Positions 4,552 to 47,692 of a stretch of 56,397 nt of DNA are shown here, in pieces. A model generated the notes under the pieces. The model did not search any database and was not told the DNA's origin. It saw nothing but the letters and a program-made list of their open reading frames with translations. The stretch lies in IMG/VR virus record IMGVR_UViG_3300044846_004564, positions 1 through 56,397 of that record. One strand, written 5' to 3'. The stretch is from a virus. The translations under genes were made by a program, and so were the position numbers. The first letter of the stretch is position 1, and every line of letters starts with the position of its first letter.

Positions 4552-5004
4552 ATGGCAAATGGTGTAACATACGGTATTACTTTTCCTTTTAAAGATTCGC
4601 TAAATGGTAAATTTTTGGATTTATCAGATACAAGTGAAGAAGAAATTAGAAGTAGTTTAATACATTTATTACTTACAAGAAAAGGTAGTAGATATTTTAT
4701 GCCAAACTTTGGGACAAGATTATATGAGTTTATTTTTGAACCACTTGATAGTCCTACTTTTGACCAAATAGAGACAGAAATAAAAGAAGCGGTTGAAACT
4801 TACATACCAGGATTAACAATTACTTCAGTTAAAATTGAACCAGCGGTTGAGACTCAAGATACTTTACAAATAAATAATGAGTCGGCAACTGAATTTAATT
4901 TTACTAATACTCCTGAAATTGAATACACCGCAAAAGTAAGAATAAATTATAATATTACAAATAATGTATTTAATACCGCAGGATTTGTAATTATTAATAT
5001 ATAA
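4552..5004 (+). CDS. Baseplate wedge protein, T4 gp25-like (GPW/gp25 family)
   Basis: 150 aa, close to the T4 gp25 length (132 aa). The family signature is visible: a Phe/Asp-rich start (ITFPFKDSLNGKFLDL), a helix EEEIRSSLIHLLLTRKGSR, then RYFMPNFGTRLYEFIFEP, which matches the conserved 'G-R-PxFG-L-FEP' block, and a C-terminal strand set (ITSVKIEP). In contractile tails gp25 forms part of the wedge core and contacts the sheath-initiating region; it acts in the virion and not enzymatically. The gp6-like gene follows 4 bases after its stop, the same gp25-gp6 neighbour order seen in many T4-like and P2-like phages. Confidence 0.9.
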   Translation: MANGVTYGITFPFKDSLNGKFLDLSDTSEEEIRSSLIHLLLTRKGSRYFMPNFGTRLYEFIFEPLDSPTFDQIETEIKEAVETYIPGLTITSVKIEPAVETQDTLQINNESATEFNFTNTPEIEYTAKVRINYNITNNVFNTAGFVIINI

Positions 5005-5008
5005 AACT

Positions 5009-6880
5009 ATGATATCATATACTACAAGGGATTTTCAGGCAATTAGATTAGAGTTAATAAATTATGTTAGAACTTATTATCCTGATTTAATTCAAAACGT
5101 AAATGATGCTTCTGTTTTTTCTGTATTACTTGACTTAAACGCTGCGGTTACTGATAACTTAAATTATCATATTGATAGAAGTTTACAAGAAAGTGTTTTA
5201 CAATTTGCACAACAACCAAGTTCACTTTATAATATTGCTCGAACTTATGGATTAAAAATTCCTGGAATGAGACCATCGATTTCATTGGTTGATTTTTCAA
5301 TACAAGTTCCACCTTTTGGTGACGCTCCTGCTGTACAATCTAGTACAGGTACATTACAACCACCAGACTCTGCTTATTTTGGAATTTTAGCTAAAGGTAG
5401 TCAGGTAATTGGTGCTGGTCAAACTTTTGAAACTTTATACGATGTTGATTTTGGTAATGATTTTAATAGTGAAGGAATGGTTAACAGAACAGTAATTCCT
5501 AACTTTAACGCTAATAATATATTAATTAACTATACAATTACAAAAAGAGAAGTTGTTATTAATGGTATTACAAAAGTATTTAAGAGAGTTATTAATACTC
5601 CTGAAACAAGACCATTTTTTGAATTTTTCTTACCTGAAAAAAACGTATTGGGTGTAACTGGTGTAATCTTAAAAGACGGTACTAATTACAACAACATTCC
5701 TTCAGCACAAGAGTTTATGGATACTACAAACTTAACTAATAAGTGGTTTGAAGTTGAGGCTTTAGCTCAGGACAATATTTTTATCGAAGACCCAACAAAA
5801 CCACAGGATGAAACAGGTATTAAGGTTGGTCGTTATTATAAAACAAACCAAAAGTTTATTACTGAATATACACCACAAGGATTTTTAAAATTAACTTTTG
5901 GTGGTGGAAATACATCCTCAGATGAACTATTAAGACAATTTACTACTAATGGTACTCCTTTAGACATATCGAAATATCAAAATAACTATTCTTTAGGTTC
6001 AACACTTAAAGGTAATTCAACATTATTTGTTCAGTATCGTGTTGGAGGTGGATTGGTAAGTAATCTTGGACCTGGTTCAATTACTCAACTTGGAACTGTG
6101 AACTTTAATGTATATGGTAGTGACCAAAATAAAGTTACTGCAGTAATTAATTCTTTATCTTGTAACAACATATTACCATCAATTGGTGGTGCAAATTATC
6201 CAAGCATTGAAGAAATTAGAAATTTAATAACATTTAACTTTGCCGCACAAAACAGAGCGGTAACTATTAATGATTACGAAGCGATTATTAGAAAAATGCC
6301 TTCAAGATTTGGAGCACCTGCTAAAGTTGCAATTACTGAGGTTGATAATAAAATAAACGTACAAATTTTGTCATACGATTCTACAGGAGCGTTAACTGAA
6401 GTAGTATCTGGTACAATAAAAAATAATATTGCAACTTATTTGTCAAATTACAGAATGATGAATGATTATATCCAAGTTCTTTCGGCTCAAGTAATTGATT
6501 TAGCGTTTGACATTTTTATTGTACTTAATAGTTCACAAAATCAGGGTGTTGTAATTTCAAATATAATATCAAGGATTAATACTTATATGAGTCCAAGTAA
6601 TCGAGGTATGGGTGAAAATCTTTATATATCACAATTAAGAGCGTTAATACAAAGTGAAGAAGGTGTTATTACTGTTGCATCTATAAATGTGTATAACCGA
6701 GTTGGTGGATTATATTCATCATCACAAGTTTCTCAATCATATTCTAATACAACAACAAAAGAAATTAAGGTTATAGAAGATACTATTTACGCAGAACCAA
6801 ATCAAATTTTTAATATTAGATTCCCTGATAAGGACATTAAAGTGTCAGTTAAAAATCTAACAACAGTTAATTTCAGTTAA
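5009..6880 (+). CDS. Baseplate wedge protein, T4 gp6-like (baseplate J family)
   Basis: 623 aa (T4 gp6 is 660). The N-terminus (ISYTTRDFQAIRLELINYVR, then DLNAAVTDNLNYHIDRSLQE) is the characteristic gp6/baseplate-J opening. The C-terminal half has the gpJ-like core AVTINDYEAIIRKMPSRFG followed by alternating strands and the SPSNRGMGENLYISQL segment. gp6 dimers build the iris ring of the baseplate around the hub. It is translationally close to gp25 (4-base gap). The assignment rests on motif recognition and gene order. Confidence 0.87.
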   Translation: MISYTTRDFQAIRLELINYVRTYYPDLIQNVNDASVFSVLLDLNAAVTDNLNYHIDRSLQESVLQFAQQPSSLYNIARTYGLKIPGMRPSISLVDFSIQVPPFGDAPAVQSSTGTLQPPDSAYFGILAKGSQVIGAGQTFETLYDVDFGNDFNSEGMVNRTVIPNFNANNILINYTITKREVVINGITKVFKRVINTPETRPFFEFFLPEKNVLGVTGVILKDGTNYNNIPSAQEFMDTTNLTNKWFEVEALAQDNIFIEDPTKPQDETGIKVGRYYKTNQKFITEYTPQGFLKLTFGGGNTSSDELLRQFTTNGTPLDISKYQNNYSLGSTLKGNSTLFVQYRVGGGLVSNLGPGSITQLGTVNFNVYGSDQNKVTAVINSLSCNNILPSIGGANYPSIEEIRNLITFNFAAQNRAVTINDYEAIIRKMPSRFGAPAKVAITEVDNKINVQILSYDSTGALTEVVSGTIKNNIATYLSNYRMMNDYIQVLSAQVIDLAFDIFIVLNSSQNQGVVISNIISRINTYMSPSNRGMGENLYISQLRALIQSEEGVITVASINVYNRVGGLYSSSQVSQSYSNTTTKEIKVIEDTIYAEPNQIFNIRFPDKDIKVSVKNLTTVNFS

Positions 6881-16190: not shown

Positions 16191-17096
16191 ATGGCAACAG
16201 GTAATTATGGAACAGTAAGATTGGCGGATGTGAGTCCAGCTGATGTGGAAATAATAATGAATTATACACCATCAAGAGATTTCACTAATAATTTCATCTT
16301 GAAAAAATTAGATGCTCTTGAGTTGTTACAACCTTATTTTAGTAATCCTGCTATTGGTGGGCAAACAAATGAAATTTTAGGTGGGATGTATAATTTAAAA
16401 TTACCATCTTCAGAATTTAATAATCTTGGAATTTATAACCTATTAATTAGGCCAATTCAAATTAGAACTGAAATTCTTGATTGTGGTGTATTACAAGCAC
16501 TACCAAATGTTAAGGGTATCATTATTGATTTGACAAATGTACCCCAAGAATTTTTAAACAGATTTGTTCCACAAGGACTAGTGGGTTATCGAATAGAATA
16601 TTTGAATAGTGATGGTACAAAAAATACTAATTTTTTTAGAATAATTACTTCTTCATTTTATTGTGAGGCGGTAGTTGCAAATACTAATAATACATCCGAT
16701 AAAGCACAAAGATGGGTTTATAGTGATGGTGAAACTAATCTTTTATTTTGTACGGTTTCACCAAGTTCATCACCCTCAAACAAACCAAATGCAACACCTT
16801 ATATTGGTGCTGCGGGACAAAATATTATTTTAACAAATACCTTTTTTGACCCAATAATGATTGAAGTTGAAATTGTTGAAAATGATATATCAACGTTAGC
16901 AATCGCACTTTACGGGAATCAAACTAAATCTATTGAAGATGGTATATATACCATTTATGATACTAATAACAACATTTACAAACAATACAACTTATATGAA
17001 ATTAGAAGTCAATTTAATGAGTTGTTATATGAGGTTAGACAAAATAGAGGAAGTAATCTTGATACAACTAAAATCTTTGATAATATCATAGCTTAA
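16191..17096 (+). CDS. Tail/baseplate protein, unknown (301 aa)
   Basis: It starts at ATG 16191 after AAGG and ends in TAATG, so the next gene's ATG overlaps its stop by one base, implying translational coupling. The sequence is mixed alpha/beta, with an N-terminal charged helix-like part (SPADVEIIMNYTPSRDFTNN) and a C-terminal helix-rich end (NLYEIRSQFNELLYEVRQNR) that could pack in a trimer. No catalytic motif or known family is recognised. Coupling to the gpI-like gene suggests a wedge component. Confidence 0.55.
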   Translation: MATGNYGTVRLADVSPADVEIIMNYTPSRDFTNNFILKKLDALELLQPYFSNPAIGGQTNEILGGMYNLKLPSSEFNNLGIYNLLIRPIQIRTEILDCGVLQALPNVKGIIIDLTNVPQEFLNRFVPQGLVGYRIEYLNSDGTKNTNFFRIITSSFYCEAVVANTNNTSDKAQRWVYSDGETNLLFCTVSPSSSPSNKPNATPYIGAAGQNIILTNTFFDPIMIEVEIVENDISTLAIALYGNQTKSIEDGIYTIYDTNNNIYKQYNLYEIRSQFNELLYEVRQNRGSNLDTTKIFDNIIA

Positions 17097-20059
17097 TGGC
17101 AACTTATAAATGTCCACCACAAAATAGAAATTTTTCCGATAATTTTGTTGGTTTACAACTGACTGATGGTGGAGGACTTACGCTTGGTGGTTTTGAATTC
17201 TCAACTAGTATTACCGAAAAGGTTAATAGAAATTTTGAAACTGGTACATTTTCATCATTATTTAATAATGATGATTTAAATTTAACACCCGAATTAGCTG
17301 CGTCTGTTTATAACAATAATTTCAGATTGTACCCAAATTTTGATGAAACTGATGTTACAAATTTTGTATCCTATGGTTCATTAAGTAAACGATTAGAAGT
17401 TGCAATTAATAATGTCTTAAATTATTTTCCAGCGGCGTTAGAAATAAGAAATTTTACATCAGGGTCAACAACTGCAAATACTGCGGTTAATATTAGTTAT
17501 AATGGTAATTTAGATGAAACAGTATTAACAATTCCTTGGCAAACAATAAGTAATCCTTTCAATATTGATTATAGAATTAATGCAACTGTTTATATCAGTA
17601 GTTTAGGATTTCCTGTTTCAAAATACAGAAACTTAACAAATCAATTTAGAAGTTATTCATTATTTCTTAGCGGACAAAGTTATGAACTAAATTATATTAA
17701 TACAACCTCTGATTTTTCAACCGATTTAACAATATATGTTAAAGGTAATCCATTTAGTGGGTTAACAACATATTCTCAAAATTTTGTTGTTAGACCAAAT
17801 GATACAATAGTTAATGAAGTTTTCAATCTTGAGTTAGGAGAAATTGAAGAAGCGTTATTAAATAGATACTCTAACCCAATATATACGTACCAATATCAAA
17901 CACCATCTGAATCGGATGATGGTTACATTTCAAATGTTGTACGTTCAATTACTTGGCCATTAGGTGGTGTATGGAATATAGATATTAGTTCTTTTGGATA
18001 TGAAAATTATATATCTGAATTACAGATATTAGGTACAAGTTATGATGAAAATAAAACAAATTTAGTATCTAGATTTTATACGACAAATGCGTTAAAGGAA
18101 TTTGATACTGTAGATGAAAAGGTTGATAAGACTTTAAAAATTTATGGTAGAAGTTTTGATGAAACAAAAAAATATATTGATGGAATACAGTATGTTAATT
18201 CTGTAAATTACAATATTGGAAATGATATACCTTCAGGTTTAGTTACTAATTTGGCTCAAACACTTGGTTGGTCAATCAGGATGTCCCCAATTGCAAATGC
18301 TGACTTTTTAGAGTCGGTTTATGGTACTACGGATAATGCGTTTCCTGCTTATTCGACAAGTCAAACAAAACAAGATTTAAATAATCAATATTTTAGAAAT
18401 TTAATTCTTAATTCATCTTATTTGTACAGGTCAAAAGGAACAAGAAAGTCGATTGAATTTTTATTGGGTTTTATTGGGGCACCTGAAGCTCTTGTTGAGT
18501 TTAATGAGAATGTTTATTTGGCGGACACAAATATTAATATAGAAAAATTTAATTTATTATATTCACAAATTTCAGGTGGAACATATACCCCACAGTTTAC
18601 GGTTTTAAATAGTGGTAATACCTATAATTTTCAGGGTGTAACATATACTGCATTTACACAATCAGGTGTTACAATTCCGACAAATACAACATTAACCGAT
18701 TATCCTGTTGACAGTGAGGGTTATCCTGTAAATCCTGTGTTTACTCAAGGGACAACAAGTAGACCAAGTTTTTATTTTCAAAAAGGAGGTGGATGGATTG
18801 AGTCTACAGTACAACATAGAACACCTGAAGAAGTTAATTATAGTACTAGTATCTACACTGGACAAAATGTTAATATCCAAACTAATTTAGAACCATTCAC
18901 ATATGGTCAAAAATTCTTAGATAGATTTAGAAATTTCCCATTCATGGATATGGGTTTTAATCTTAAAAAAGTTCAGGATAATAAAAAGAGTTGGACTAAT
19001 GAAGATATCGGGTTGAGAAAAAACATTGATAATTTATTTAATGCTTATTACCCAATCTCAACAGATAGATTATTACTTAATGTTAAGAATGTTGAAATAT
19101 TCTTAAATCCTGCTCAAGCTCTTGCATATGATGTTTGGTATGTTTCGGCAACCAAAAATTACCCAATACCTTACACAGGATTATCTTCACCGTATCCACA
19201 GATAGGTGGTATTGATTGGACTTTTATTAATCCACAACCACAAAATAAAACTTTTTATGAGTTTTATAAAACTTTTTGGTTGAACATGATAAATGTTAGA
19301 AATCGACAATTTTCATCCGATGGAAAAACAAGTGGTTACCCAACATTACAGTCACTATTTTGGAAATACCTTACGATGTACCAAGATACAGGATTAACTA
19401 ATTACAATTTTGGTTATCAAAATATGATTGAGTATATTAATGGACTAGGTGATTTTTGGATTAAATTAATTGAACAATTTGTTCCGGCAACAACTATTTG
19501 GAATACAGGAACAAAATTTGAAAATTCAATATTCCATAGACAAAAGTTTATTTATAGAAGACAAAGAGGTTGTCAGTTGGTACTACAAGAAGTTGTTGGG
19601 CCGGTTACAACTGGTACTCTCCAAACTAATGGTTGTGACTCATTTACTTTTGATATTGATGTACCATCAATTCAAAATATTGGAGATGGTTTACATGATG
19701 ATGCACAAGTATTGGCGACTGAACAAGGGTTTACTGATGGTTATACAATTGTCAATGCAAGTTATGGATTTGGTTTTACATTAACACACATTAATACTGG
19801 TGAAGAATTTATATTTGAGTATAATAATGGGCCAACCTATTATTACCCAAATTTATACCCAACTCAAACACAATGGATAAATACTATAAATCAAGGATTA
19901 GTTTACTTTTCAAATAGTGGAATTAATAATCAAGCAGGTGTACAAATAGTTTATAACAGTAATACAAATCAATTACAATTAATATCGACAATATGTGGAT
20001 TTGATGATGTTGTTATAAGTGATATAGTCGTAATAAATGATATACAGATACAAGGATAA
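17096..20059 (+). CDS. Large baseplate protein with a P2 gpI-like segment
   Basis: 987 aa. Residues about 380-475 contain LAQTLGWSIRMSPIANADF and, further on, YRSKGTRKSIEFLLGF, a combination that resembles the tail protein I (P2 gpI) family; gpI partners gpJ (the gp6-like family) in baseplate wedges. The N-terminal 370 residues are beta-rich and Asn/Thr-rich; the C-terminal about 150 residues (after RQRGCQLVLQEVVGP) look like an added beta domain. It starts at TAATG on the upstream stop and ends in TAATGG at the next gene, so three genes are coupled. Wedge function is an inference from the gpI-like segment and neighbours; this could be the functional counterpart of T4 gp7 or gp53. Confidence 0.6.
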   Translation: MATYKCPPQNRNFSDNFVGLQLTDGGGLTLGGFEFSTSITEKVNRNFETGTFSSLFNNDDLNLTPELAASVYNNNFRLYPNFDETDVTNFVSYGSLSKRLEVAINNVLNYFPAALEIRNFTSGSTTANTAVNISYNGNLDETVLTIPWQTISNPFNIDYRINATVYISSLGFPVSKYRNLTNQFRSYSLFLSGQSYELNYINTTSDFSTDLTIYVKGNPFSGLTTYSQNFVVRPNDTIVNEVFNLELGEIEEALLNRYSNPIYTYQYQTPSESDDGYISNVVRSITWPLGGVWNIDISSFGYENYISELQILGTSYDENKTNLVSRFYTTNALKEFDTVDEKVDKTLKIYGRSFDETKKYIDGIQYVNSVNYNIGNDIPSGLVTNLAQTLGWSIRMSPIANADFLESVYGTTDNAFPAYSTSQTKQDLNNQYFRNLILNSSYLYRSKGTRKSIEFLLGFIGAPEALVEFNENVYLADTNINIEKFNLLYSQISGGTYTPQFTVLNSGNTYNFQGVTYTAFTQSGVTIPTNTTLTDYPVDSEGYPVNPVFTQGTTSRPSFYFQKGGGWIESTVQHRTPEEVNYSTSIYTGQNVNIQTNLEPFTYGQKFLDRFRNFPFMDMGFNLKKVQDNKKSWTNEDIGLRKNIDNLFNAYYPISTDRLLLNVKNVEIFLNPAQALAYDVWYVSATKNYPIPYTGLSSPYPQIGGIDWTFINPQPQNKTFYEFYKTFWLNMINVRNRQFSSDGKTSGYPTLQSLFWKYLTMYQDTGLTNYNFGYQNMIEYINGLGDFWIKLIEQFVPATTIWNTGTKFENSIFHRQKFIYRRQRGCQLVLQEVVGPVTTGTLQTNGCDSFTFDIDVPSIQNIGDGLHDDAQVLATEQGFTDGYTIVNASYGFGFTLTHINTGEEFIFEYNNGPTYYYPNLYPTQTQWINTINQGLVYFSNSGINNQAGVQIVYNSNTNQLQLISTICGFDDVVISDIVVINDIQIQG

Positions 20060-22239
20060 TGGCGGAAAGTTCGTATTCAATAAGTTTAACAGGTGATTGT
20101 ACAAATAGTTCATTAGGAGCTGCGCTAATTACTTTAGTTGGCTCAAGTCCGTATACAATCTATTGGGTAAATAATGTATTACCATCGGCAACTTTTTCAG
20201 GAAGTTCTTATTCTGTAACAGGATTAAGTACGGGTACTTACGGATTTAATATTACAGCTTCAACTATTCCGATTAATGAAGTTATAGGACCTGTATATTT
20301 TAATATAGTTTCAGCAAGTACTGCATATATTAACACATCTGATTTTGTAACATGTCAACCTGATAGTTCATATTTAACAGTTGTAACCACAGGAACGACT
20401 AATGGGGTAATTGACAATACTCAAGGAACATTTGTTGGGGCAACAATTAATTTATATAAAGACTATGTATACTATGCTTCCGCAACTTCGGTTAATACCG
20501 CATATTCTTTTATAAATTTATCTGAAGGTATGTATTACGCTCAGGTAACAGGGGATGGTAATTGCCCTTGTGAAACAGAATCTGTGATAATACATACTAA
20601 TCCAAATTTACTTGATTTTGGATTATATACAATTGATAATCCAGCATGTTCACAACAAAGTGGTAAAATATACGTTACAGGTTTAACAGGTGTTTCACCA
20701 TTCATTTATCAGTGGTCACCTACTGTTGGTGGTACAGGTGATACATTTGTAACTGGGCTAACTCAAGGCTCGTACAATTTAACTGTTATAGATGCGAATG
20801 GGTGTAGTTTAACTAAAATAACAACTATTACAAATGCTGAACCGATATCGTTTATATCTTATACAACCACACCACCAACTTGTTTTAATGCTGATGGGAG
20901 TATAACGTTTAATATTACAGGTGGAACGGCTCCGTATTTTTATTTATTAAGTAATGGTGATTCAGTTACAACATATGGTACATCTGTAACATTTAATAAT
21001 ATTGGGTCAGGAAGTTATACTTTAACAGTTACGGATGTTTCGTTATGTAGTCTCTCAACATCAGTTGATTTCTTAGTTCCAAGAAGTTTTTCATTGGTAT
21101 CTGAAACAGTTTCAAACTCACAATGTTCGTATAATAGTGGGTCAATAACTGTTACATTATTAGGTGGGACACCTCCATTTATATATTCATTAAGTAATAA
21201 TAGTGGTGTGACAACAACTAATACGTCAACACTTCAAACCAATACATTTAACAGTTTAGAGTCGGGTACATATACTTTAACAATTAATGATAGTAGTAGT
21301 GCTTGTACTTATACTAATAATATTACAGTATTAAATGATACATCATTTAATTTTTCTATTACAGGAAATAGTACTTATTGTGGTCTTAATGATGGTTCTA
21401 TCAATATATCTGTAACTCCAAGTTATACATCTTCAACATTTTATACGTATTCACTATCAAACGGGGCTAGCTCATACCCGACAACTTCAACGACATATAC
21501 CTTTACTAGTTTACCTGCAGGTAATTACGATGTAACTATTGAAAATCTTTCAGGATGTACTCAAACTACATCAACTACAATTGATTATTTGGCACCTTAT
21601 CAATTTGCGTTATATGGTACTGATTGTATAAATGGTAGTGGTGGTACGATAAGTGTTTTATTAAATGAAAGTACTGGGCCTTTTAACTTTATTTGGAGTG
21701 ATAATGTTAATGGTCAAATTGGTACATATATTACAGGTTTAACTGCTGGTACTTATGTATTAACTGTTAGCGGTACAAGTAATTGTGAAACAACTAAATC
21801 AATTGATATTAGTTGTAACCCATTAAGAACTGCTAGCTCAACTTACAAGTATACGATTGGTAATAAAACATATCTACCTTCATCAATATTTAATTTTACA
21901 AAAATGTTAAATGAGGGATATTCTTCATTAACAACAGGACATGAGGATTGTAAACTTAAATATGCTAAATTTAATTGTGATATAGAACTTGACGGAACGG
22001 TTTATTCAGGTACTTTCTTTACAACAACATCTTTATCTAATTCACCGACAGTAAACGCATTTAAGACAGTTATTGATGCATTAATCAATACTATACCTGA
22101 TATTAAATCTTATGAGGTTAATTTATTGACAAATACCATCAGTATTGAATCAGATGTTGTTGGTGGTGTTGAAGTTTATAAAGATGATGTATTAACTATA
22201 TCGGTAAGAATGGATTATAGTATATCTTGTCGCACTTAA
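20059..22239 (+). CDS. Adhesin-like tail protein with SprB-type repeats
   Basis: 726 aa. Residues about 195-585 are five tandem modules of 70-80 aa with the pattern 'tGGt-PPY-Y-S...L-aGtY-vtV-D-nGC' (for example FVTGLTQGSYNLTVIDANGC and GGTAPYFYLL), and the N-terminus holds a weaker copy. This is the signature of SprB repeats from the Flavobacterium johnsoniae gliding adhesin and related Bacteroidetes surface proteins. Cys recurs at module ends. A distinct C-terminal domain (about 587-726) is alpha/beta and lacks the repeat. Start ATG 20059 overlaps the previous stop by one base, tying it to the baseplate operon, so a virion location is likely. Role inferred: receptor contact or spacer. It was probably acquired from, or shared with, the host lineage. 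Confidence 0.72.
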   Translation: MAESSYSISLTGDCTNSSLGAALITLVGSSPYTIYWVNNVLPSATFSGSSYSVTGLSTGTYGFNITASTIPINEVIGPVYFNIVSASTAYINTSDFVTCQPDSSYLTVVTTGTTNGVIDNTQGTFVGATINLYKDYVYYASATSVNTAYSFINLSEGMYYAQVTGDGNCPCETESVIIHTNPNLLDFGLYTIDNPACSQQSGKIYVTGLTGVSPFIYQWSPTVGGTGDTFVTGLTQGSYNLTVIDANGCSLTKITTITNAEPISFISYTTTPPTCFNADGSITFNITGGTAPYFYLLSNGDSVTTYGTSVTFNNIGSGSYTLTVTDVSLCSLSTSVDFLVPRSFSLVSETVSNSQCSYNSGSITVTLLGGTPPFIYSLSNNSGVTTTNTSTLQTNTFNSLESGTYTLTINDSSSACTYTNNITVLNDTSFNFSITGNSTYCGLNDGSINISVTPSYTSSTFYTYSLSNGASSYPTTSTTYTFTSLPAGNYDVTIENLSGCTQTTSTTIDYLAPYQFALYGTDCINGSGGTISVLLNESTGPFNFIWSDNVNGQIGTYITGLTAGTYVLTVSGTSNCETTKSIDISCNPLRTASSTYKYTIGNKTYLPSSIFNFTKMLNEGYSSLTTGHEDCKLKYAKFNCDIELDGTVYSGTFFTTTSLSNSPTVNAFKTVIDALINTIPDIKSYEVNLLTNTISIESDVVGGVEVYKDDVLTISVRMDYSISCRT

Positions 22240-22266: not shown

Positions 22267-23271
22267 ATGAGTTTAGTAACAATAAATAGTTTGGGAGGAA
22301 TACCTCCTTATGTTATTTCAGTTTGTGACATATTTCAATACTCTTGTCAAACTGTGACAACAATATATGATTATATTCCACCATCTGTTAGTTTTAATAT
22401 TCCGAGTCCATATTCATCGGCTCCAAAAGTTTTAATTAAAATAGTCGATTCTACAGGATGTATTTTCACACAAGAATATATGTGTGTAACACCTACTCCA
22501 ACCCCAAGTATTACTCCAAGTGTCACCCCGACAATTTCTTTAACTCCTTCAAATACTCCAACACCAAGTATTACACCATCATTTACACCTACACCGAGTA
22601 TCACACCAAGTATTACACCTACACAAACAGTTACACCATCACATACCCCAACACAAACAATTACTCCAACAGTTACAAGAACTCCAACACCTACAGTTAC
22701 ACCTGACACTCCTATTTATGCTTATTTGTTCATTGAACCATACTCAGGTTCTGCTAGTGTTGGTTCTTACATGAATTCACTTGGTTCTAATTTTTATGGA
22801 TTTACAAATACTACTAAACCAAGTAGTTCGGCTAGTACATTTGATTTAGACATGAACAAATATGTTAACTTCTCAGGATGGACAACAGGATTATTTCCAA
22901 ATATTATAAAACAATTAGTACCATCGGCAAGTAGTGGACTTGATTCATACGGTAACCCATATCTTAAATATAATTTCCCAACAACAAAAGTACCTGAAAA
23001 TACGGTTGGATGTAAAGCTTGGTACACTTGGATAATACCAATTAGCAGAACCAATAATCAATACCAAGTTGAGATTGATTTGGGAATAGTTAATCCAAAT
23101 GTCTTTACAAGTGTAAAGACGGAACCGACAATTTACGCTAATACATTTACTTATACAGGTAGTACTATTGCAAATACAACATACAGGGTTTACACAACAT
23201 ACCCATCAAATACATTTGAATTGGATAATACTTATGACCTTTATTTTAGAGGAAGTAAGGTTGATATATAA
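22267..23271 (+). CDS. Modular adhesin: 72-aa module + TPT linker + YAY-EP domain
   Basis: 334 aa in three parts. Residues 1-74 are a small Cys-containing beta module ([16 protein letters not shown]... [17 protein letters not shown]) that also occurs as free proteins at 45394 and 53288. Residues about 75-148 are a mucin-like linker of T-P-T/S-x-T-P units. Residues about 150-334 start with [14 protein letters not shown] and match the C-terminal domain of the protein at 33484 (YAYVFAEPQDSSAS). The next gene is a G-x-S fibre protein, the same pair order as at 33484/34723. Probably a virion adhesin or fibre adaptor with an extended, possibly glycosylated neck. No enzymatic motif is visible. Confidence 0.72.
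22490..22710 (+). repeat. Thr-Pro mucin-like linker repeat
   Basis: About 74 codons of T-P-T-P-S-I-T-P type units. Codons vary (ACT/ACA/ACC, CCA/CCG/CCT), so conservation is at the protein level and not from recent slippage. Related tracts occur at 26250, 33916 and, in inverse orientation, 52340. Confidence 0.85.
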
Positions 23272-23280
23272 TTATAGTAA

Positions 23281-25278
23281 ATGAGTTTCCCATATAAAAA
23301 TCCAATATCGTCTATCCAACTAAATGGAACACAAAGTGTACCAAGAAACAATACGTATGGTACTACTTTCAGTGTTAATAATACGGGTGGTTATATGGAG
23401 GTTTTCAGTTTATCTGACCTTTATTATACAATACCATCGGGAACAACGGGAAGTATTGAATATTCGGGTAATACTATTCCTATTGAGTTTACAAAAGGAA
23501 CGGGAACAGCTTGGTCACCTGATGTAATTACTTTGGCTTCAGATAATATTTCATCAGGTAGAAGACGACTTGGTATGTTGGCTTATGTTTATGAGGTTGA
23601 CCAAGTTTACCAATATCATATTAATGATTACGAGACGTTATTTAATGCTGCGACTGCTAGTACGGGATGCGCTCAAGTATCTGATTTTGGAACAACGATA
23701 AATAATAAAACTGCTGCGGGTCAGTCGTTTATTAATTCTTGGACTGCTAACACTATTGAAGATGTTAGTGGTGCAACATATAGTACTGCGGCATGGAGAA
23801 AGTTTTCGACAGGAACTGGAGGAGGTTCAGGATTTACGTCAGTTAGAATAAATAATGTTAGTCAATTTACGTCATCACCATATAGTTATATTAATTTTAG
23901 TGGTGTTAATGTTGATATATCATCAGTTGGAAACAATACGATTGTATTATCGGCAAGTACTAGCGGAGGTGGTGGAGGAAGTGGTTCGTCAGGTAGTAGT
24001 GGTAGTTCAGGAACATCGGGAACTAATGGTAGTTCAGGTTCTAGCGGGATTAGTGGTTCTTCAGGTACTAGTGGTAGTTCAGGTTCTGCAGGAACATCGG
24101 GGAGTTCGGGTTCTACAGGTTCGTCAGGAACAAGTGGTAGTAGTGGAACTTCAGGTAGTTCTGGTACATCTGGTTCAAGTGGTAGTAGTGGTTCTTTAGG
24201 AACATCAGGAAGTAGTGGTACCTCAGGTAATGGTGGGTCATCGGGAACAAGTGGTTTAGATGGGATAAGTGGAACGTCAGGTTCTTCAGGGTCAAGTGGA
24301 AGTACTGGCTCTTCAGGAACTAGCGGAACATCAGGTTTAAGTGGTTCTTCAGGAACTTCAGGTAGTTCTGGTACATCAGGTTCATCGGGTAGTTCCGGTT
24401 CTGCCGGAACATCAGGTACAGGATTTACCACAATCACAAGTCCGGGTAGTAATAGAGTATTAACATCTGATGGGACATCTAATGCTGCGGTTGCTCAGGC
24501 TAGAATGACTTTTGATGGTACTACATTATCAGTTACAGGTAATACAAGTGTTAATGGTAATATAAGTACTACAGGTGTAACATCTTTTGGTAACGGAACA
24601 TTTACAAAGGCGGGGTCAGCTACTGGTGATGTTCTTCTTGATAATAATAGTACAGATACTCCGGGTGTTTTGTTTTATTATGCTAATAATTCAAACTTTG
24701 GTATTGATAGTTTTAATGGGTCATTTGATGTTCTAAGTGGACAGTTAGTTCGTATCACAAATAATTTAAATGAAGCAGGAGGTGCGGTAAAAATGGCTAT
24801 AGATACCACAGGTAATGTGGTATTTACAGGATTTATAAAGGCTAATGCGTGGAGAGCCGGTCAGGTAATTAACGATATTATTTTGAGTAATACTGAGGTA
24901 ACTGTTAGTACTACAACTATAGCTACCAGTAATTCGGATACTGATTTTGTTACTTATAGTTATACACCATTAAGTTCTACAAGTTATTTAGTAATACATT
25001 ATCATTTAGCATCTTTTGATTTTACTTCTGGTACAGGTAATGATTCATACATATCTAGAATAAAGGTTGATGGTGGTGAAATAACCTATTCAGTACAAAG
25101 CACGGTTAATGGATTTCGTACAGGTGTTTTATTTCCATTAACGGGTAGATACACTAACTCTAATACTACCGCAAAATCGATAGTAGTTGCATGTCGTAGA
25201 AGTTTTGCGGATGATAATATCACAATAGTAAATTCATCTACTTCAATGTGGTTAAGAATAACAGAAGTTGCAAGATAA
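23281..25278 (+). CDS. Fibre protein with G-x-S collagen-like stalk
   Basis: 665 aa. Residues 1-230 are a head domain (FPYKNPISSIQLNGTQSVPR...) homologous to the start of the 2,435-aa protein (IPYQNPISASQITGPFSVAR); both contain SGRRRLGM. Residues about 233-380 are Gly-x-Ser triplets (x = S, T, A, N, L) with glycine every third residue as in collagen, but with no proline. Residues about 380-665 are a beta-rich C-terminal region, first resembling the 'TSDGT...FDGTTLSVTGN' motif of long phage fibres and then a jelly-roll-like tip (SYLVIHYHLASFDF). Likely a trimeric side or tail fibre; the tip would bind receptor. It is the shorter partner of the gene at 34723. Confidence 0.75.
   Translation: MSFPYKNPISSIQLNGTQSVPRNNTYGTTFSVNNTGGYMEVFSLSDLYYTIPSGTTGSIEYSGNTIPIEFTKGTGTAWSPDVITLASDNISSGRRRLGMLAYVYEVDQVYQYHINDYETLFNAATASTGCAQVSDFGTTINNKTAAGQSFINSWTANTIEDVSGATYSTAAWRKFSTGTGGGSGFTSVRINNVSQFTSSPYSYINFSGVNVDISSVGNNTIVLSASTSGGGGGSGSSGSSGSSGTSGTNGSSGSSGISGSSGTSGSSGSAGTSGSSGSTGSSGTSGSSGTSGSSGTSGSSGSSGSLGTSGSSGTSGNGGSSGTSGLDGISGTSGSSGSSGSTGSSGTSGTSGLSGSSGTSGSSGTSGSSGSSGSAGTSGTGFTTITSPGSNRVLTSDGTSNAAVAQARMTFDGTTLSVTGNTSVNGNISTTGVTSFGNGTFTKAGSATGDVLLDNNSTDTPGVLFYYANNSNFGIDSFNGSFDVLSGQLVRITNNLNEAGGAVKMAIDTTGNVVFTGFIKANAWRAGQVINDIILSNTEVTVSTTTIATSNSDTDFVTYSYTPLSSTSYLVIHYHLASFDFTSGTGNDSYISRIKVDGGEITYSVQSTVNGFRTGVLFPLTGRYTNSNTTAKSIVVACRRSFADDNITIVNSSTSMWLRITEVAR
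23980..24420 (+). repeat. G-x-S tripeptide repeat (short copy)
   Basis: About 147 codons of Gly-x-Ser. It includes the peptide GLDGISGTSG, which recurs near the end of the giant repeat (about 41281), linking the two tracts by descent. Confidence 0.88.
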
Positions 25279-28064: not shown

Positions 28065-29309
28065 ATGAAAATTTTTATACAAGTTGCCTCTTACAGAGAC
28101 CCCCAACTAATCCCAACTATACAGTCAGCATTGGAAAATGCTAAACGACCTGAAAACTTAGTTTTTGGTATTGCTCGTCAGTTTCATCCTGATGATAATT
28201 TTGATAATTTAGATGAATATAGGAATGATGAAAGATTTAGAATAATCGATATTCCATACACCGAATCCAAAGGAGCTTGTTGGGCAAGAAATCAAATACA
28301 ACAAGTATATGGTAAGGAAACTTACACTCTTCAAATTGACTCACACATGAGGTTTGCTCAAAATTGGGATGATGAGATGATTAAGATGGTTAAACAACTT
28401 CAAAAGAAAGGATATAAGAAACCTTTATTAACAGGTTATGTTTCATCCTTTGACCCTGACAATGACCCCAACCTACGTGTTAACGAACCATGGAGAATGG
28501 CGTTTGATAGATTTATTCCTGAAGGTGCGGTTTTCTTTTTACCTGAAACAATTCCTGGTTGGCAAAATTTAACTGAACCTGTTACCGCAAGATTTTACTC
28601 GGCTCACTTCTGTTTTACTCTTGGAAAATTTGCTAAAGAAGTTCAACACGACCCTGAGTTTTATTTTCATGGTGAAGAGATTTCAATCGCTGCAAGAGCA
28701 TACACTCATGGATATGATTTATTCCACCCACATAAAGTTTTAATTTGGCATGAATATACTCGTAAGGGTAGAACTAAACAATGGGATGACGATAAACAAT
28801 GGGTTGATAAGAATAATTTTGCTCATAAGAAAAATCGTTCTCTATTCGGTATGGATGGTGAGGAAGATATGAATCACGGGAAGTATGGGTTTGGTAAAGT
28901 TAGAACTTTAAGAGATTATGAAAAATATTCAGGTCTTTTATTTTCAAAGAGAGCCGTTCAACAATATACGTTAGATAAAGGTTATCCACCAAATCCAAAT
29001 AACTTCAATTCAGAAGAAGAATGGTTAAAGTCATTTACATCGGTATTCAAACATTGTATTGATATTGGGTTTACTCAAGTACCTGAAAAGGATTATGACT
29101 TTTGGGTTGTTGCGTTCCATAATGAATTAGATGAAACCATTTACAGACAAGATGCTGATAAAGGTGAGGTTGATAGAATGTTAAGAGACCCTGATGGTTA
29201 TTGTAAAGTTTGGAGAGAGTTCTTAACTGATTCAAAACCTAAATATTGGGTTGTTTGGCCTCACTCGGAATCTAAAGGATGGTGTGATAGAATAACAGGA
29301 AATTTATAA
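28065..29309 (+). CDS. GlcNAc-transferase-like glycosyltransferase (PF11397/GT60-like)
   Basis: 414 aa. It starts MKIFIQVASYRDPQL, the classic first strand of the PF11397 family (Skp1 GnT1-like and trypanosome mucin GlcNAc-transferases, CAZy GT60). Supporting motifs: KGACWARNQ (69-77), a DxH metal motif in LQIDSHMRF (D92, H94), HGEEIS (202-207) and LIWHEY (226-231). Known members transfer alpha-GlcNAc to hydroxyproline or Thr/Ser of proteins, so a polypeptide substrate is plausible. No signal peptide or membrane segment is present, so it would act in the host cytoplasm. It heads five transferase-like genes placed between two blocks encoding Thr/Ser-rich fibres. Sugar and acceptor are inferred from the family. 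Confidence 0.82.
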   Translation: MKIFIQVASYRDPQLIPTIQSALENAKRPENLVFGIARQFHPDDNFDNLDEYRNDERFRIIDIPYTESKGACWARNQIQQVYGKETYTLQIDSHMRFAQNWDDEMIKMVKQLQKKGYKKPLLTGYVSSFDPDNDPNLRVNEPWRMAFDRFIPEGAVFFLPETIPGWQNLTEPVTARFYSAHFCFTLGKFAKEVQHDPEFYFHGEEISIAARAYTHGYDLFHPHKVLIWHEYTRKGRTKQWDDDKQWVDKNNFAHKKNRSLFGMDGEEDMNHGKYGFGKVRTLRDYEKYSGLLFSKRAVQQYTLDKGYPPNPNNFNSEEEWLKSFTSVFKHCIDIGFTQVPEKDYDFWVVAFHNELDETIYRQDADKGEVDRMLRDPDGYCKVWREFLTDSKPKYWVVWPHSESKGWCDRITGNL

Positions 29310-34722: not shown

Positions 34723-37700
34723 ATGGCAATACCGTATCAAAATCCAATAAGTGCGTCCCAAATTACAGGACCTTTCAGTGTAGCGAGAACAAGTCCATAC
34801 GGAACCAATTTTAATGTTTTAAATGTTGGTGGATGGCAAGAGGCGGCATACCTTACTAATTTAGGTTTAACATTTAGTGGGCAAGGACAACAACAATTAA
34901 GTGTTAATAATATACCTATTAATATTAACATTGGTAACGGTACATTTTCTCCAACATATTTAACTTTAAATTCTGACAATTTCTCTTCGGGTAGAAGAAG
35001 ATTGGGTATGATTGTTTGGGTTAATGAAACTGAAACGGCATATCAATATCAAATAGACAATTACAATGATTTATGGGATGCTGCAGTAAGTGCTAATTCT
35101 GTAACTCAATTATCTTACGAAACTATTATAAAGAATAATACACCTGAAGGTCAGGCATTTATTAATGCTTGGACAGGCTCAACTATTGAAGGTGTTAGTG
35201 GTGTTACAAGAGAAAATGCGAGATGGAGAGTTTTTGCTCAAGGTACTGAATTAACGGGTGGTACTTATTTTTCAGGTACAAGTACATTAGAATTATATAA
35301 TAGTGATGGAACTATTATTTCTGTAACAGGTATTACGGCATCTGGTTCTAATGGTAGTTCTGGAACATCAGGTTCTGCGGGTACAAGTGGTTCTTCAGGA
35401 AGTGCTGGTTCTTCAGGTAACTCTGGTTCTTCAGGTTCAGCAGGTACAAGTGGAACTTCAGGTAGTTCTGGTTCATCAGGTAGTTCTGGTTCTGCGGGTA
35501 CATCAGGAACAAGTGGAACGTCTGGTTCATCAGGGGATAGCGGTTCTTCGGGAAGTGCTGGAACTAGCGGTAGTTCAGGTAGTGCTGGAACATCAGGTAT
35601 TAATGGTGTTGATGGTGCAAGTGGAACATCAGGTACAAGTGGTTCATCAGGACTATCAGGTACTGGAGGTTCTTCGGGTACATCAGGAACATCTGGCTCC
35701 TCAGGTTCATCAGGTTCTTCAGGAAGTGTGGGAACAAGTGGAACGTCAGGTTCTTCGGGAAGTTCTGGTACAAGCGGAACTTCAGGAACTTCAGGTTCAA
35801 GTGGTTCATCGGGAAGTTCAGGTTCAAGTGGTTCATCGGGTACATCAGGTAGTACTGGTACTAGTGGTAGTAGTGGAACAAGCGGAACGTCGGGTTCATC
35901 AGGTTCTGCGGGAAGTAGTGGTTTATCAGGTAGTGTTGGAACATCTGGCTCAAGTGGTAGTTCAGGTAGTTCTGGTTCATCAGGTACATCTGGCTCAAGT
36001 GGTAGCTCTGGTTCAACAGGTTCGTCAGGTAGTAGTGGTATAACTGGGTCTTCAGGTACGAGTGGTAGTTCTGGCACATCAGGTTCATCTGGTAGTTCAG
36101 GTTCTTCAGGTTCATCTGGTAGTTCAGGTTCTTCAGGTAGTACTGGTTCATCAGGAACTAGCGGAACATCAGGAACATCAGGTACAAGTGGTAGTTCAGG
36201 TTCTACAGGAACATCGGGTTCTACAGGAACATCGGGTTCATCAGGTAGTAGTGGCTCAAGTGGAAGTTCAGGATTGACAGGTTCATCAGGAACATCGGGT
36301 TCATCAGGGACATCGGGTTCATCAGGTAGTTCTGGTTCAAGTGGTAGTAGCGGAAGTACAGGGTCTTCGGGCACAAGTGGTAGTTCTGGTACATCAGGTT
36401 CATCAGGAAGTTCAGGTTCATCAGGTTCTAGCGGTAGTGTTGGAACTTCGGGAACAAGTGGTTCAAGTGGAAGTTCAGGTTCTTCAGGAAGTGTAGGAAC
36501 ATCAGGTACAAGTGGAAGTTCAGGTTCGTCTGGCTCAAGTGGAAATACAGGTTCAAGTGGAACGAGTGGTTCATCAGGTACATCTGGCTCAAGTGGTAGT
36601 TCAGGTTCGTCTGGCTCAAGTGGTTCAAGTGGAAGTTCAGGTTCATCTGGAAGTGTAGGAACATCAGGTACAAGTGGTAGTTCAGGTTCTTCAGGTAGTT
36701 CAGGTGTTAATGGTTCTTCAGGGACTAGTGGTAGTTCGGGAACATCTGGTTCTTCAGGAAGTTCGGGTTCATCAGGTTCTAGTGGTAGTTCAGGAACATC
36801 TGGCTCAAGCGGGTCTTCTGGTTCAAGTGGAAGTACTGGTTCTTCAGGAAGTGCAGGTACATCGGGTAGTGTAGGAACTAGCGGTAGTTCTGGTTCATCT
36901 GGTTCTTCAGGTAGTACTGGCTCAAGTGGTACTTCAGGTTCTTCGGGAAGTTCTGGTACTAGTGGTTCATCAGGTAGTGTAGGTACTAGTGGTTCATCAG
37001 GTAGTTCTGGTTCAAGTGGTAGTAGCGGAAGTACAGGGTCTTCTGGTACAAGTGGGAGCTCAGGAACATCTGGTACAAGCGGTAGTTCTGGGTCATCTGG
37101 TTCAGTTGGTACAAGCGGTTCATCAGGTAGTGTTGGAACATCTGGTTCATCAGGTTCTGTTGGTACTTCAGGAACATCGGGTTCATCAGGTAGTACTGGT
37201 TCAAGTGGAAGTTCAGGAAGTAGTGGTAGTGTAGGAACAAGTGGTTCTTCAGGGACATCTGGCTCAACAGGTACTTCAGGAACATCAGGTTCAAGTGGGT
37301 CTTCAGGTAGTTCGGGTTCATCAGGAAGTTCAGGTACAAGCGGAACATCAGGTTCAGTAGGAACAAGTGGTTCATCGGGAAGTTCAGGGTCAACAGGAAC
37401 TTCAGGTTCAAGTGGGTCTTCAGGTAGTTCAGGAAGTAGCGGAACATCTGGTTCTAGTGGAAGTGTTGGAACTTCTGGTACATCAGGAACAAGTGGTTCA
37501 TCGGGAAGTTCTGGTTCTGCCGGTACAAGTGGAAGTGTAGGAACAAGTGGTACTTCAGGTTCATCTGGCTCAAGTGGAAGTTCAGGTTCAACAGGTAGTT
37601 CAGGTACTAGCGGTTCATCTGGAAGTTCTGGTTCTGCAGGTACAAGTGGAAGTTCTGGTTCTTCAGGTAGTACGGGTTCAAGAGGAACTAGCGGAACATC

Positions 37701-45661: not shown

Positions 45662-47692
45662 ATGGCTTTAGGATTTCAAAATTGTTGTGACATTGAGGAC
45701 TATTTTTATGTAAATGGTATTCCTGGTTCTGTTTCAGAATATGAGATATATTATATTGAAACAACACAAGGTGATACGTTATGTGGAACATATGTTGAAT
45801 TACCTGAATTATTTTATGAACCTTTGGTTTATGATTTAGTTGGAATGACTGGACAAACAAGTTGTACTACTTGTAAATTATTAAATCCTTGTCCTACAGG
45901 TATTACTATTGATTTTAGTAGTCAGAGTACAGGTATTTTTACAACAGTAAATGAATGTACTATTAAAACAATTTTTCCATTCTATGTTGAATGTGATAGT
46001 GTGTTCCCAACATTAGATGAGTCAACAACTGGTTCAGTTAGTTTATTTGTCACGGGTGGTACACCACCATATAGTTTTTACAGTGCGGGAACTGAAACTC
46101 AAATTGGTCAAGCTATAGAACCAACAAATAATACTTATTTGTTGTATACTGACGTTATACCTGGTACATATTCAACAACTGTTGTTGACTATTATGGTGA
46201 TAATGTACAAGATATTGACTGTGTTATTCCTGAACTACCTGATTATATTTATGCTGAGTGTCAGGTTACAAATCCAACTATTAATGGATTTAATGATGGT
46301 AGTTTAACATTGTATGTAACAGGTGGAACACCACCATATAATTACTATTATTCAGGTTCTTCAATAACATTACCACTTACTAATTTAAGTGCTGGGACGT
46401 ACAACATTACAGTTGTTGATAGTGGAGTTGGAATTTATTCACAAACTGCAACAACATCTTGTTTAGTTGAAAATCCTGCTGAAATAATTTATCCTAATAA
46501 ATTATGTATGAATTTTGATTATTGTGGTGTTGAATTTTATTTAAATTTTACAAGTGCGTCAACCTACAATTTAAGACCGTTATATACTCTTGATAATCCT
46601 TCTGAGATTTCTGTCACAGGAATGAGTTTATTTTGGAATACAAGTTGGGTAAGTTCAGTTGAAAATCACAATTCACCATTACCAATACCAACACAATGTC
46701 AACAAGAACAAACTTGTTCATTTACTATTCAAAATCCTTTTGCAATTAAACCACAAGACAGTGGTTGGTACGGTTCAGGTACATTTACACCTGGACCAAG
46801 TATATCATCAATTATTGTAACTTCAGGTGTTTGTTCGGCGATAACACCAACATTAACAGTACAAGTTGAAAATTATTGTGATAATTCAACACAGTGTCAA
46901 GGAGGTGTAACTTTAATACCTAGCTCATCATTTGGTGGGCCATACACGTATTTTGTTGATGATGTTGAACAAAACTCACCTGTATTTTTTGGATTATGTA
47001 GTGGAGGTCACACGGCACAAGTAATAGATGGCGATGGTAATTTAAGTGATATTGTTTCATTTAATATTACATCAACAACACCCTCAACTATTGGTTATTC
47101 AAATTGTGTATTTTCTGCTGGAGATATTGTTAATTTAAATTCAGGTGGTAATAAAAAATGGAATTTTAAAACTGTAATATCTAATATACCGTCATCATGT
47201 CAACTAATTGGTAAAGTTAGAATAACTTATCAATATCTTTTCTCAGGTGTGACGGCAAATATTGGAATATCTCCAATATTACCATCGGGTACTTGGAATT
47301 TAATTATTAACCAATTAACAACACAACCTGCGGTTGGTAATTGTCCGGCATATGTTATTTATACTCAAGTTTACGAGTCAACAAATTATACTATAAATGT
47401 GTTTTCATCTACAATACAAATAAATAATTGTGGGTTCAGTTGGTTTTTTAATAATCCAGTAGGATTATGTACTAATAAAGATGTACGAGGTATTGTGACA
47501 GTTCAAATGTATTCAATCACTCCTAGTGGAGCTCAGTGTTGTATAACTATACCTCCGACTTATACTATTGGAACGTCTACTGTCCATATTAGATATAATA
47601 AAACAACACCGCCATCTGAAATTACATTAACTAATACAAGTCTTCTATGTAATCCAAGTACACCTTCACCACCGGCAGAAAACATACAATAA
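45662..47692 (+). CDS. Adhesin-like protein: MAL-CC head + SprB-type repeats
   Basis: 676 aa. Residues 1-80 are a Cys-rich head (MALGFQNCCDIEDYF; YYIETTQGDTLCG; SCTTCKLLNPCP) shared with the minus-strand protein ([26 protein letters not shown]). Residues about 100-275 hold two SprB-like modules (SLFVTGGTPPYSFYSAG; TLYVTGGTPPYNYYYSG, then LSAGTYNITVVDSG). The remainder is Cys/Asn/Thr-rich beta sequence with further weak modules (TLIPSSSFGGPYTYFVDDVE) and no catalytic motif. Expected to be part of the receptor-binding apparatus. It lies between the free 72-aa module and the collar/fibre-like gene. Confidence 0.68.
   Translation: MALGFQNCCDIEDYFYVNGIPGSVSEYEIYYIETTQGDTLCGTYVELPELFYEPLVYDLVGMTGQTSCTTCKLLNPCPTGITIDFSSQSTGIFTTVNECTIKTIFPFYVECDSVFPTLDESTTGSVSLFVTGGTPPYSFYSAGTETQIGQAIEPTNNTYLLYTDVIPGTYSTTVVDYYGDNVQDIDCVIPELPDYIYAECQVTNPTINGFNDGSLTLYVTGGTPPYNYYYSGSSITLPLTNLSAGTYNITVVDSGVGIYSQTATTSCLVENPAEIIYPNKLCMNFDYCGVEFYLNFTSASTYNLRPLYTLDNPSEISVTGMSLFWNTSWVSSVENHNSPLPIPTQCQQEQTCSFTIQNPFAIKPQDSGWYGSGTFTPGPSISSIIVTSGVCSAITPTLTVQVENYCDNSTQCQGGVTLIPSSSFGGPYTYFVDDVEQNSPVFFGLCSGGHTAQVIDGDGNLSDIVSFNITSTTPSTIGYSNCVFSAGDIVNLNSGGNKKWNFKTVISNIPSSCQLIGKVRITYQYLFSGVTANIGISPILPSGTWNLIINQLTTQPAVGNCPAYVIYTQVYESTNYTINVFSSTIQINNCGFSWFFNNPVGLCTNKDVRGIVTVQMYSITPSGAQCCITIPPTYTIGTSTVHIRYNKTTPPSEITLTNTSLLCNPSTPSPPAENIQ

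Follow-up and report, generated by a model that had tools for sequence, protein, structure and literature searches.

A seven-module SprB-like protein encoded next to a baseplate-region gene in large uncultured phages, probably of Bacteroidota

Organization of the locus

The window, that is, the whole stretch of DNA analysed, is a virus record of 56,397 bases which is classed as linear and, therefore, is possibly a fragment. It contains a ribonucleotide reductase pair, gp25-like and gp6-like wedge genes, a succession of large unnamed genes of structural appearance, collagen-like fibres and a primase. The gp25-like wedge gene at 4552..5004 identifies the region as a baseplate cluster of T4-like type. 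In general terms, the following genes are of relevance here:

4552..5004, plus strand: gp25-like baseplate wedge subunit (phrog_261, E=6e-20), homologue of the immuto baseplate assembly protein
5009..6880, plus strand: gp6-like baseplate wedge subunit (phrog_219, E=2.4e-20), homologue of the immuto baseplate wedge protein (E=3e-49)
17096..20059, plus strand: 987-aa baseplate-region protein, directly upstream of the SprB-like ORF; its C-terminal domain (about 19598-20059) is common to both
20059..22239, plus strand: SprB-like protein of 726 aa, with seven SprB/Ig-like modules and then a 137-aa C-terminal domain
22267..23271, plus strand: next gene (334 aa), with a conserved small N-terminal domain, a Thr/Pro-rich linker and a C-terminal domain; synteny kept in near relatives
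23281..25278, plus strand: collagen-like tail fibre gene, of variable length (665-1370 aa) across near relatives
45662..47692, plus strand: 676-aa ORF containing two SprB-like modules and, less clearly, a third one (module model, E=3.1e-16)

The 726-aa and 987-aa proteins are homologous in their C-terminal domains (hhalign probability 95.7, versus at most 1.3 in twelve control comparisons). No named family was matched by the 987-aa protein in profile searches and, in consequence, this neighbour does not define the virion position of the SprB-like protein; its equivalence to P2 gpI or T4 gp7 found no profile support and is not claimed. As for the 334-aa protein, comparison of its N-terminal domain with the SprB modules gave hhalign probabilities of 12-42 only, and a relation between them is not established.

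Elsewhere in the window, three further ORFs can be mentioned: (i) a glycosyltransferase at 28065-29309, whose relatives in giant phages of Xanthomonas and Stenotrophomonas are full-length matches with 44-47% identity; (ii) a collagen-like (G-S/T-S) ORF of extreme length (2435 aa) at 34723-42030, over which a 2084-aa minus-strand ORF is most likely a mere shadow of the collagen-like repeats; and (iii) a Thr/Pro-rich ORF of 824 aa at 50588-53062, which has a propeller-like repeat at its end and lies on the minus strand, with transcription opposed to that of its neighbours. Domains resembling the latter ORF were also seen as C-terminal extensions of SprB-like orthologs in two relatives (L265 and L267).

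Repeat family and module composition

By profile, the 726-aa ORF is a genuine SprB-repeat protein: it matched PF13573 with E=1.7e-16 and 60 bits, the cut-off being 28. The sequence-only reading had recognised a SprB repeat pattern and proposed this profile search; the relationship is borne out, also by the match of all 24 distinct orthologs to PF13573 (best E=2.7e-26). The competing Ig-like families BiPBP_C, CarboxypepD_reg, Ig_J, Y_Y_Y and SdrD_B each fell below their own cut-off in the Pfam search of this ORF and, since PF13573 alone was over its cut-off, assignment to another Ig-like family is ruled out. When the DNA was searched with PF13573, the stretches 20857-20961 and 21100-21204 each exceeded the cut-off on their own and 21379-21468 was weaker, while none of 14 control genomes gave a match.

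A search with a model made from the family's own modules found seven tandem modules in the ORF. Five of them (M3-M7) are clearly SprB-like, with 62-86 bits, and correspond to the five that had been counted before; that count was low by two, as M1 (20.6 bits) and M2 (15.7 bits) are diverged modules that profile comparison nevertheless places in the same kind as the others. The components of the protein are:

20059..20322, plus strand: module M1 (residues 4-71), diverged; holds the family-wide GDC motif; hhalign probability to M3, M4 and M7, 97-98
20323..20610, plus strand: module M2 (residues 103-182), diverged; the most variable between the window and relative L014 (58% identity)
20611..20844, plus strand: module M3 (residues 185-262), with the highest mean similarity of all modules to bacterial SprB modules
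20845..21087, plus strand: module M4 (residues 263-342), the best PF13573 stretch (51.4 bits)
21088..21342, plus strand: module M5 (residues 344-429), PF13573 32 bits
21343..21597, plus strand: module M6 (residues 429-513), from the family module model and the DNA search
21598..21822, plus strand: module M7 (residues 514-588), the most conserved module (93% between the window and L014)
21823..22239, plus strand: alpha/beta domain at the C-terminus, with a homologue in the C-terminal domain of the 987-aa protein upstream

The two additional modules previously noticed in 45662-47692 were recovered with the family module model, at residues 112-184 (about 45995-46213) and 195-270 (about 46244-46471) of the 676-aa ORF, perhaps together with a weak third one at residues 400-474 (about 46859-47083); the ORF itself, with 22.4 bits, remains below the PF13573 cut-off of 28.

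Predicted structure and comparison with known proteins

The AlphaFold2 model built with 24 orthologs had a mean pLDDT of 77.7 and a whole-chain pTM of 0.30 and, because of the latter value, it does not give the arrangement of the modules. This model replaced a prediction from four similar sequences, which was discarded (pLDDT 36). The tandem beta-sandwich modules are predicted fairly confidently and the alpha/beta C-terminal domain confidently, with a pLDDT mostly around 90 from residue 610.

Both profile search (E=1.7e-6) and Foldseek (E=1.1e-18) returned grappling hook protein A (GhpA) of Aureispira as the first solved structure. GhpA is a Bacteroidota protein that likewise has tandem Ig-like modules, but it is a cellular protein of 5898 aa and the identity in the alignment is low (16%). 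A likeness to the Ig-like domains in tail and decoration proteins of phages (Ig_J of lambda J, Hoc) was also observed, i.e. beta-sandwich modules on virion proteins with weak profile matches. These matches, however, lie under the Pfam cut-off, and the phage modules described here are clearly nearer to SprB.

With the SprB repeats of Bacteroidota type IX secretion system (T9SS) adhesins (PF13573), such as Flavobacterium johnsoniae SprB, the 726-aa protein has in common two-cysteine modules of about 75-85 aa and a GG(T/S)xPYxY motif. Nevertheless, it is not a host SprB. Unlike the F. johnsoniae type, the phage protein has only 726 aa and seven modules fixed in number and order. Its N-terminus (MAESSYSISLTGDCTNSS), judged by direct reading of the sequence, is devoid of a hydrophobic stretch and has no evident signal peptide. 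A profile search for CHU_C, Por_Secre_tail and TIGR04131 gave no match in the protein, hence no T9SS sorting domain. Every full-length member of the phage family has seven modules, versus 1 to 63 in bacterial SprB ORFs. By motif count, T9SS ends occurred in 8 of 94 bacterial SprB ORFs, a figure that says little because many of these ORFs are cut at locus ends. Furthermore, in contrast to the gliding adhesins, the protein possesses a phage C-terminal domain and sits in a baseplate cluster. A T9SS-exported phage protein was also considered: owing to the lack of a T9SS domain and an evident signal peptide, this was rejected for the 726-aa ORF, while it holds for other genes in the clade.

Conservation across a phage family

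A locus search using the 987-aa protein as query retrieved 61 loci. Wherever present on the locus, the gene after the 987-aa homologue encoded an SprB-like ortholog in which the seven modules and the C-terminal domain were all present, at identities down to about 32%. With the module region as query, another search yielded 79 loci of the family among at least 497 relatives. The 987-aa homologue was directly upstream of the SprB-like protein in all 75 loci having the left side present, and the full model was covered in 74 of the 79 loci, the remaining five being truncated where their contigs end; as the 79-locus set includes near-copies and overlaps with the 61-locus set, these counts do not represent independent events.

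The SprB-like gene is under purifying selection (dN/dS 0.10-0.17, versus 0.09-0.10 for the 987-aa gene). The encoded protein keeps 79-92% identity in near relatives, whereas the adjacent collagen-like fibre falls to 43-46%. Between near relatives, M1, M2 and the C-terminal domain are more variable than M7. C-terminal extensions of more than 60 aa were present in 24 of 77 loci; they are mutually very different, often stand behind Thr/Pro-rich linkers and, in one ortholog, include a DUF285 repeat. By reading only, the extension of another ortholog (L246:8077-9126) resembles a Hint (intein-type self-processing) domain.

In the phage records searched, no cultured relative carrying the 726-aa protein was found. 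LR756502.1, the sole candidate from an annotated record, was rejected as a close relative, its match being a different, secreted SprB protein. On the basis of 47% identity over its whole length, a 714-aa "SprB repeat" protein of an uncultured Caudovirales phage (A0A6J5LD72, UniProt/BFVD) is almost surely an ortholog. This is a database name only, and no paper describing the seven-module family was found in the literature search. Thus, what was already known is an ortholog named "SprB repeat" in UniProt; what is new is that a baseplate-region protein of phages has Ig-like modules of SprB type as a constant part.

Origin of the modules

In a nearest-neighbour test with 15 diverse phages, each of the 105 modules had as its nearest neighbour the equally placed module of another phage, and none was nearest to a bacterial module. 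The bacterial control (15 arrays) gave the opposite pattern: 66 of 105 modules were nearest to a module within their own protein and only 6 of 105 to one at the same ordinal position elsewhere. Hence, the array is an old feature of the phage line and has become fixed there. The maximum-likelihood module tree, which has 79 columns only and leaves most inner forks unresolved, recovered positions 3 to 7 each as one group (SH-aLRT 99, 94, 92, 86 and 99, respectively), apart from 45 bacterial modules. In this phylogeny, of the kind proposed in the sequence-only reading, as in the nearest-neighbour test, no phage module is closest to a bacterial one, and these two analyses rule out a recent capture of host SprB modules.

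Since the best 77 loci in GTDB genomes all have Bacteroidota in their record titles, the modules would stem from a SprB-type surface adhesin of Bacteroidota by a capture in the distant past, in what we infer to be the direction from cell to phage. The occurrence of the same seven-domain protein at the same place across the phage family makes it look anciently captured and now fixed, and not a recent host mimic.

Relatives and likely host

A near relative of the window, 242 kb in size, has a terminase that groups with those of T4-like phages; Flavobacterium phage immuto, which by this gene is one of the nearest cultured phages, heads the list. The baseplate, wedge and primase genes of immuto match those of the window, in the same order; no homologue of either the SprB-like or the 987-aa protein was found in this phage.

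Type B T9SS proteins were identified in the 304-kb, 242-kb, 295-kb and 185-kb contigs and in LR756502.1, and type A proteins in the 242-kb, 295-kb and 192-kb contigs. To our knowledge, the type IX system is restricted to the Bacteroidota and their close relatives. As its relatives encode T9SS-sorted proteins, the host of this large uncultured phage is probably a member of the Bacteroidota.

SprB repeats and PKD domains are also found in two of the T9SS-sorted phage proteins. The first one (L018:17958-22970, from LR756502.1, a 642-kb uncultured phage) has 1670 aa and what looks like a signal peptide; 13 SprB stretches were counted in it, besides PKD and a T9SS type B domain. Apparently, it is an SprB-repeat adhesin that the phage encodes and the host secretes, separate from the structural family. 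The second one (L185:8567-10894), of 775 aa, combines SprB repeats with PKD and a T9SS type B domain and also has an apparent signal peptide; it adjoins a PAS/GAF histidine kinase and a response regulator, on a 304-kb contig (IMGVR_UViG_3300031857_000005) that also has a seven-module ortholog. In the 242-kb near relative (L191:129-728 and L288), a small protein of 199 aa carries a T9SS type B domain and one of about 162 aa a type A domain, and further proteins with T9SS sorting domains occur in the 295-kb and 185-kb relatives. Phage-encoded T9SS sorting domains were previously reported in Cryophage (PMC7468147) and in crAss-like BACON phages (PMC6949934), which in this respect resemble the clade studied here, with its type A and type B sorted proteins; by contrast, the 726-aa protein has no sorting domain, and the T9SS-sorted proteins are separate genes.

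Proposed role and alternative explanations

On balance, we consider it rather likely that the 726-aa protein is a structural protein of a contractile tail, located at or near the baseplate. The seven SprB-type Ig-like modules, once captured from a Bacteroidota SprB-type adhesin and then kept in fixed number and order, would form an arm or stalk. The phage-type C-terminal domain, present also on the adjacent 987-aa protein, may serve for assembly or docking. Since about a third of the relatives append variable domains at the C-terminus, the protein is probably also a platform for contact with the host surface, beside the variable collagen-like fibres encoded downstream. The gene lies in a tail gene cluster, at a location kept across relatives; this fixed synteny, together with the C-terminal domain in common with the 987-aa protein, supports the initial description of the product as a tail protein, its presence in the virion and its arm or stalk role being inferred. 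A repeat of cellular adhesins would thus have become a constant element of phage tail gene clusters, kept in dozens of large uncultured phages, and it would offer a testable handle on the attachment of large Bacteroidota phages. In addition, the pair formed by the 987-aa gene and the seven-module gene can serve as a marker for detecting the clade in metagenomes.

Virion Ig-like domains are generally regarded as weak surface adhesins. In accordance with this general view, the modules themselves might be the adhesin, with the tandem domains binding Bacteroidota surface polysaccharide weakly and repeatedly and so holding the phage on the surface of the cell before irreversible binding. The adhesive GhpA hook among the fold and sequence neighbours, and the higher variability of M1, M2 and the C-terminal domain compared with M7, are consistent with this possibility. 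The strong conservation of the protein next to such a divergent fibre is, however, unlike that of a host-range determinant and, in our opinion, makes the modules as adhesin an unlikely explanation. A broader proposal, which is very unlikely, is that in one lineage of large T4-like phages of Bacteroidota a SprB-type adhesin array from the host became domesticated into a core part of the baseplate, which would use the surface ligand of the gliding adhesins for attachment, while SprB-repeat and other T9SS cargo would be sent through the host secretion system during infection.

The sequence-only reading had suggested that the phage may mimic or bind the gliding machinery, or the polysaccharide that SprB binds, by displaying SprB-like repeats, and might in this way reach or travel over the cell. 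The true SprB-repeat homology of the modules and the T9SS-sorted phage proteins of the same clade (one of them with SprB repeats) speak in favour of this suggestion, as does the proposal, as related in PMC7345892, that the gliding machinery is a phage receptor in Flavobacterium. Nevertheless, no positive evidence of such mimicry or binding was obtained: the modules are ancient, fixed in number and never closest to a bacterial module, their conservation by position is not the pattern of a recent mimic, and the 726-aa protein lacks the secretion and T9SS parts on which SprB function depends. In consequence, we regard mimicry of SprB as highly improbable.

Finally, that the 726-aa protein is instead a Hoc-type head decoration with Ig-like domains seems highly improbable: its weak match to phrog_2973 (Hoc-like head decoration, E=0.0013) and the hits of its sequence in the PDB to decoration and neck-whisker proteins of phages (E=2e-4 to 1e-3) would be accounted for by a shared Ig-like fold, whereas the gene always adjoins that of the baseplate-region protein with which it has a C-terminal domain in common.
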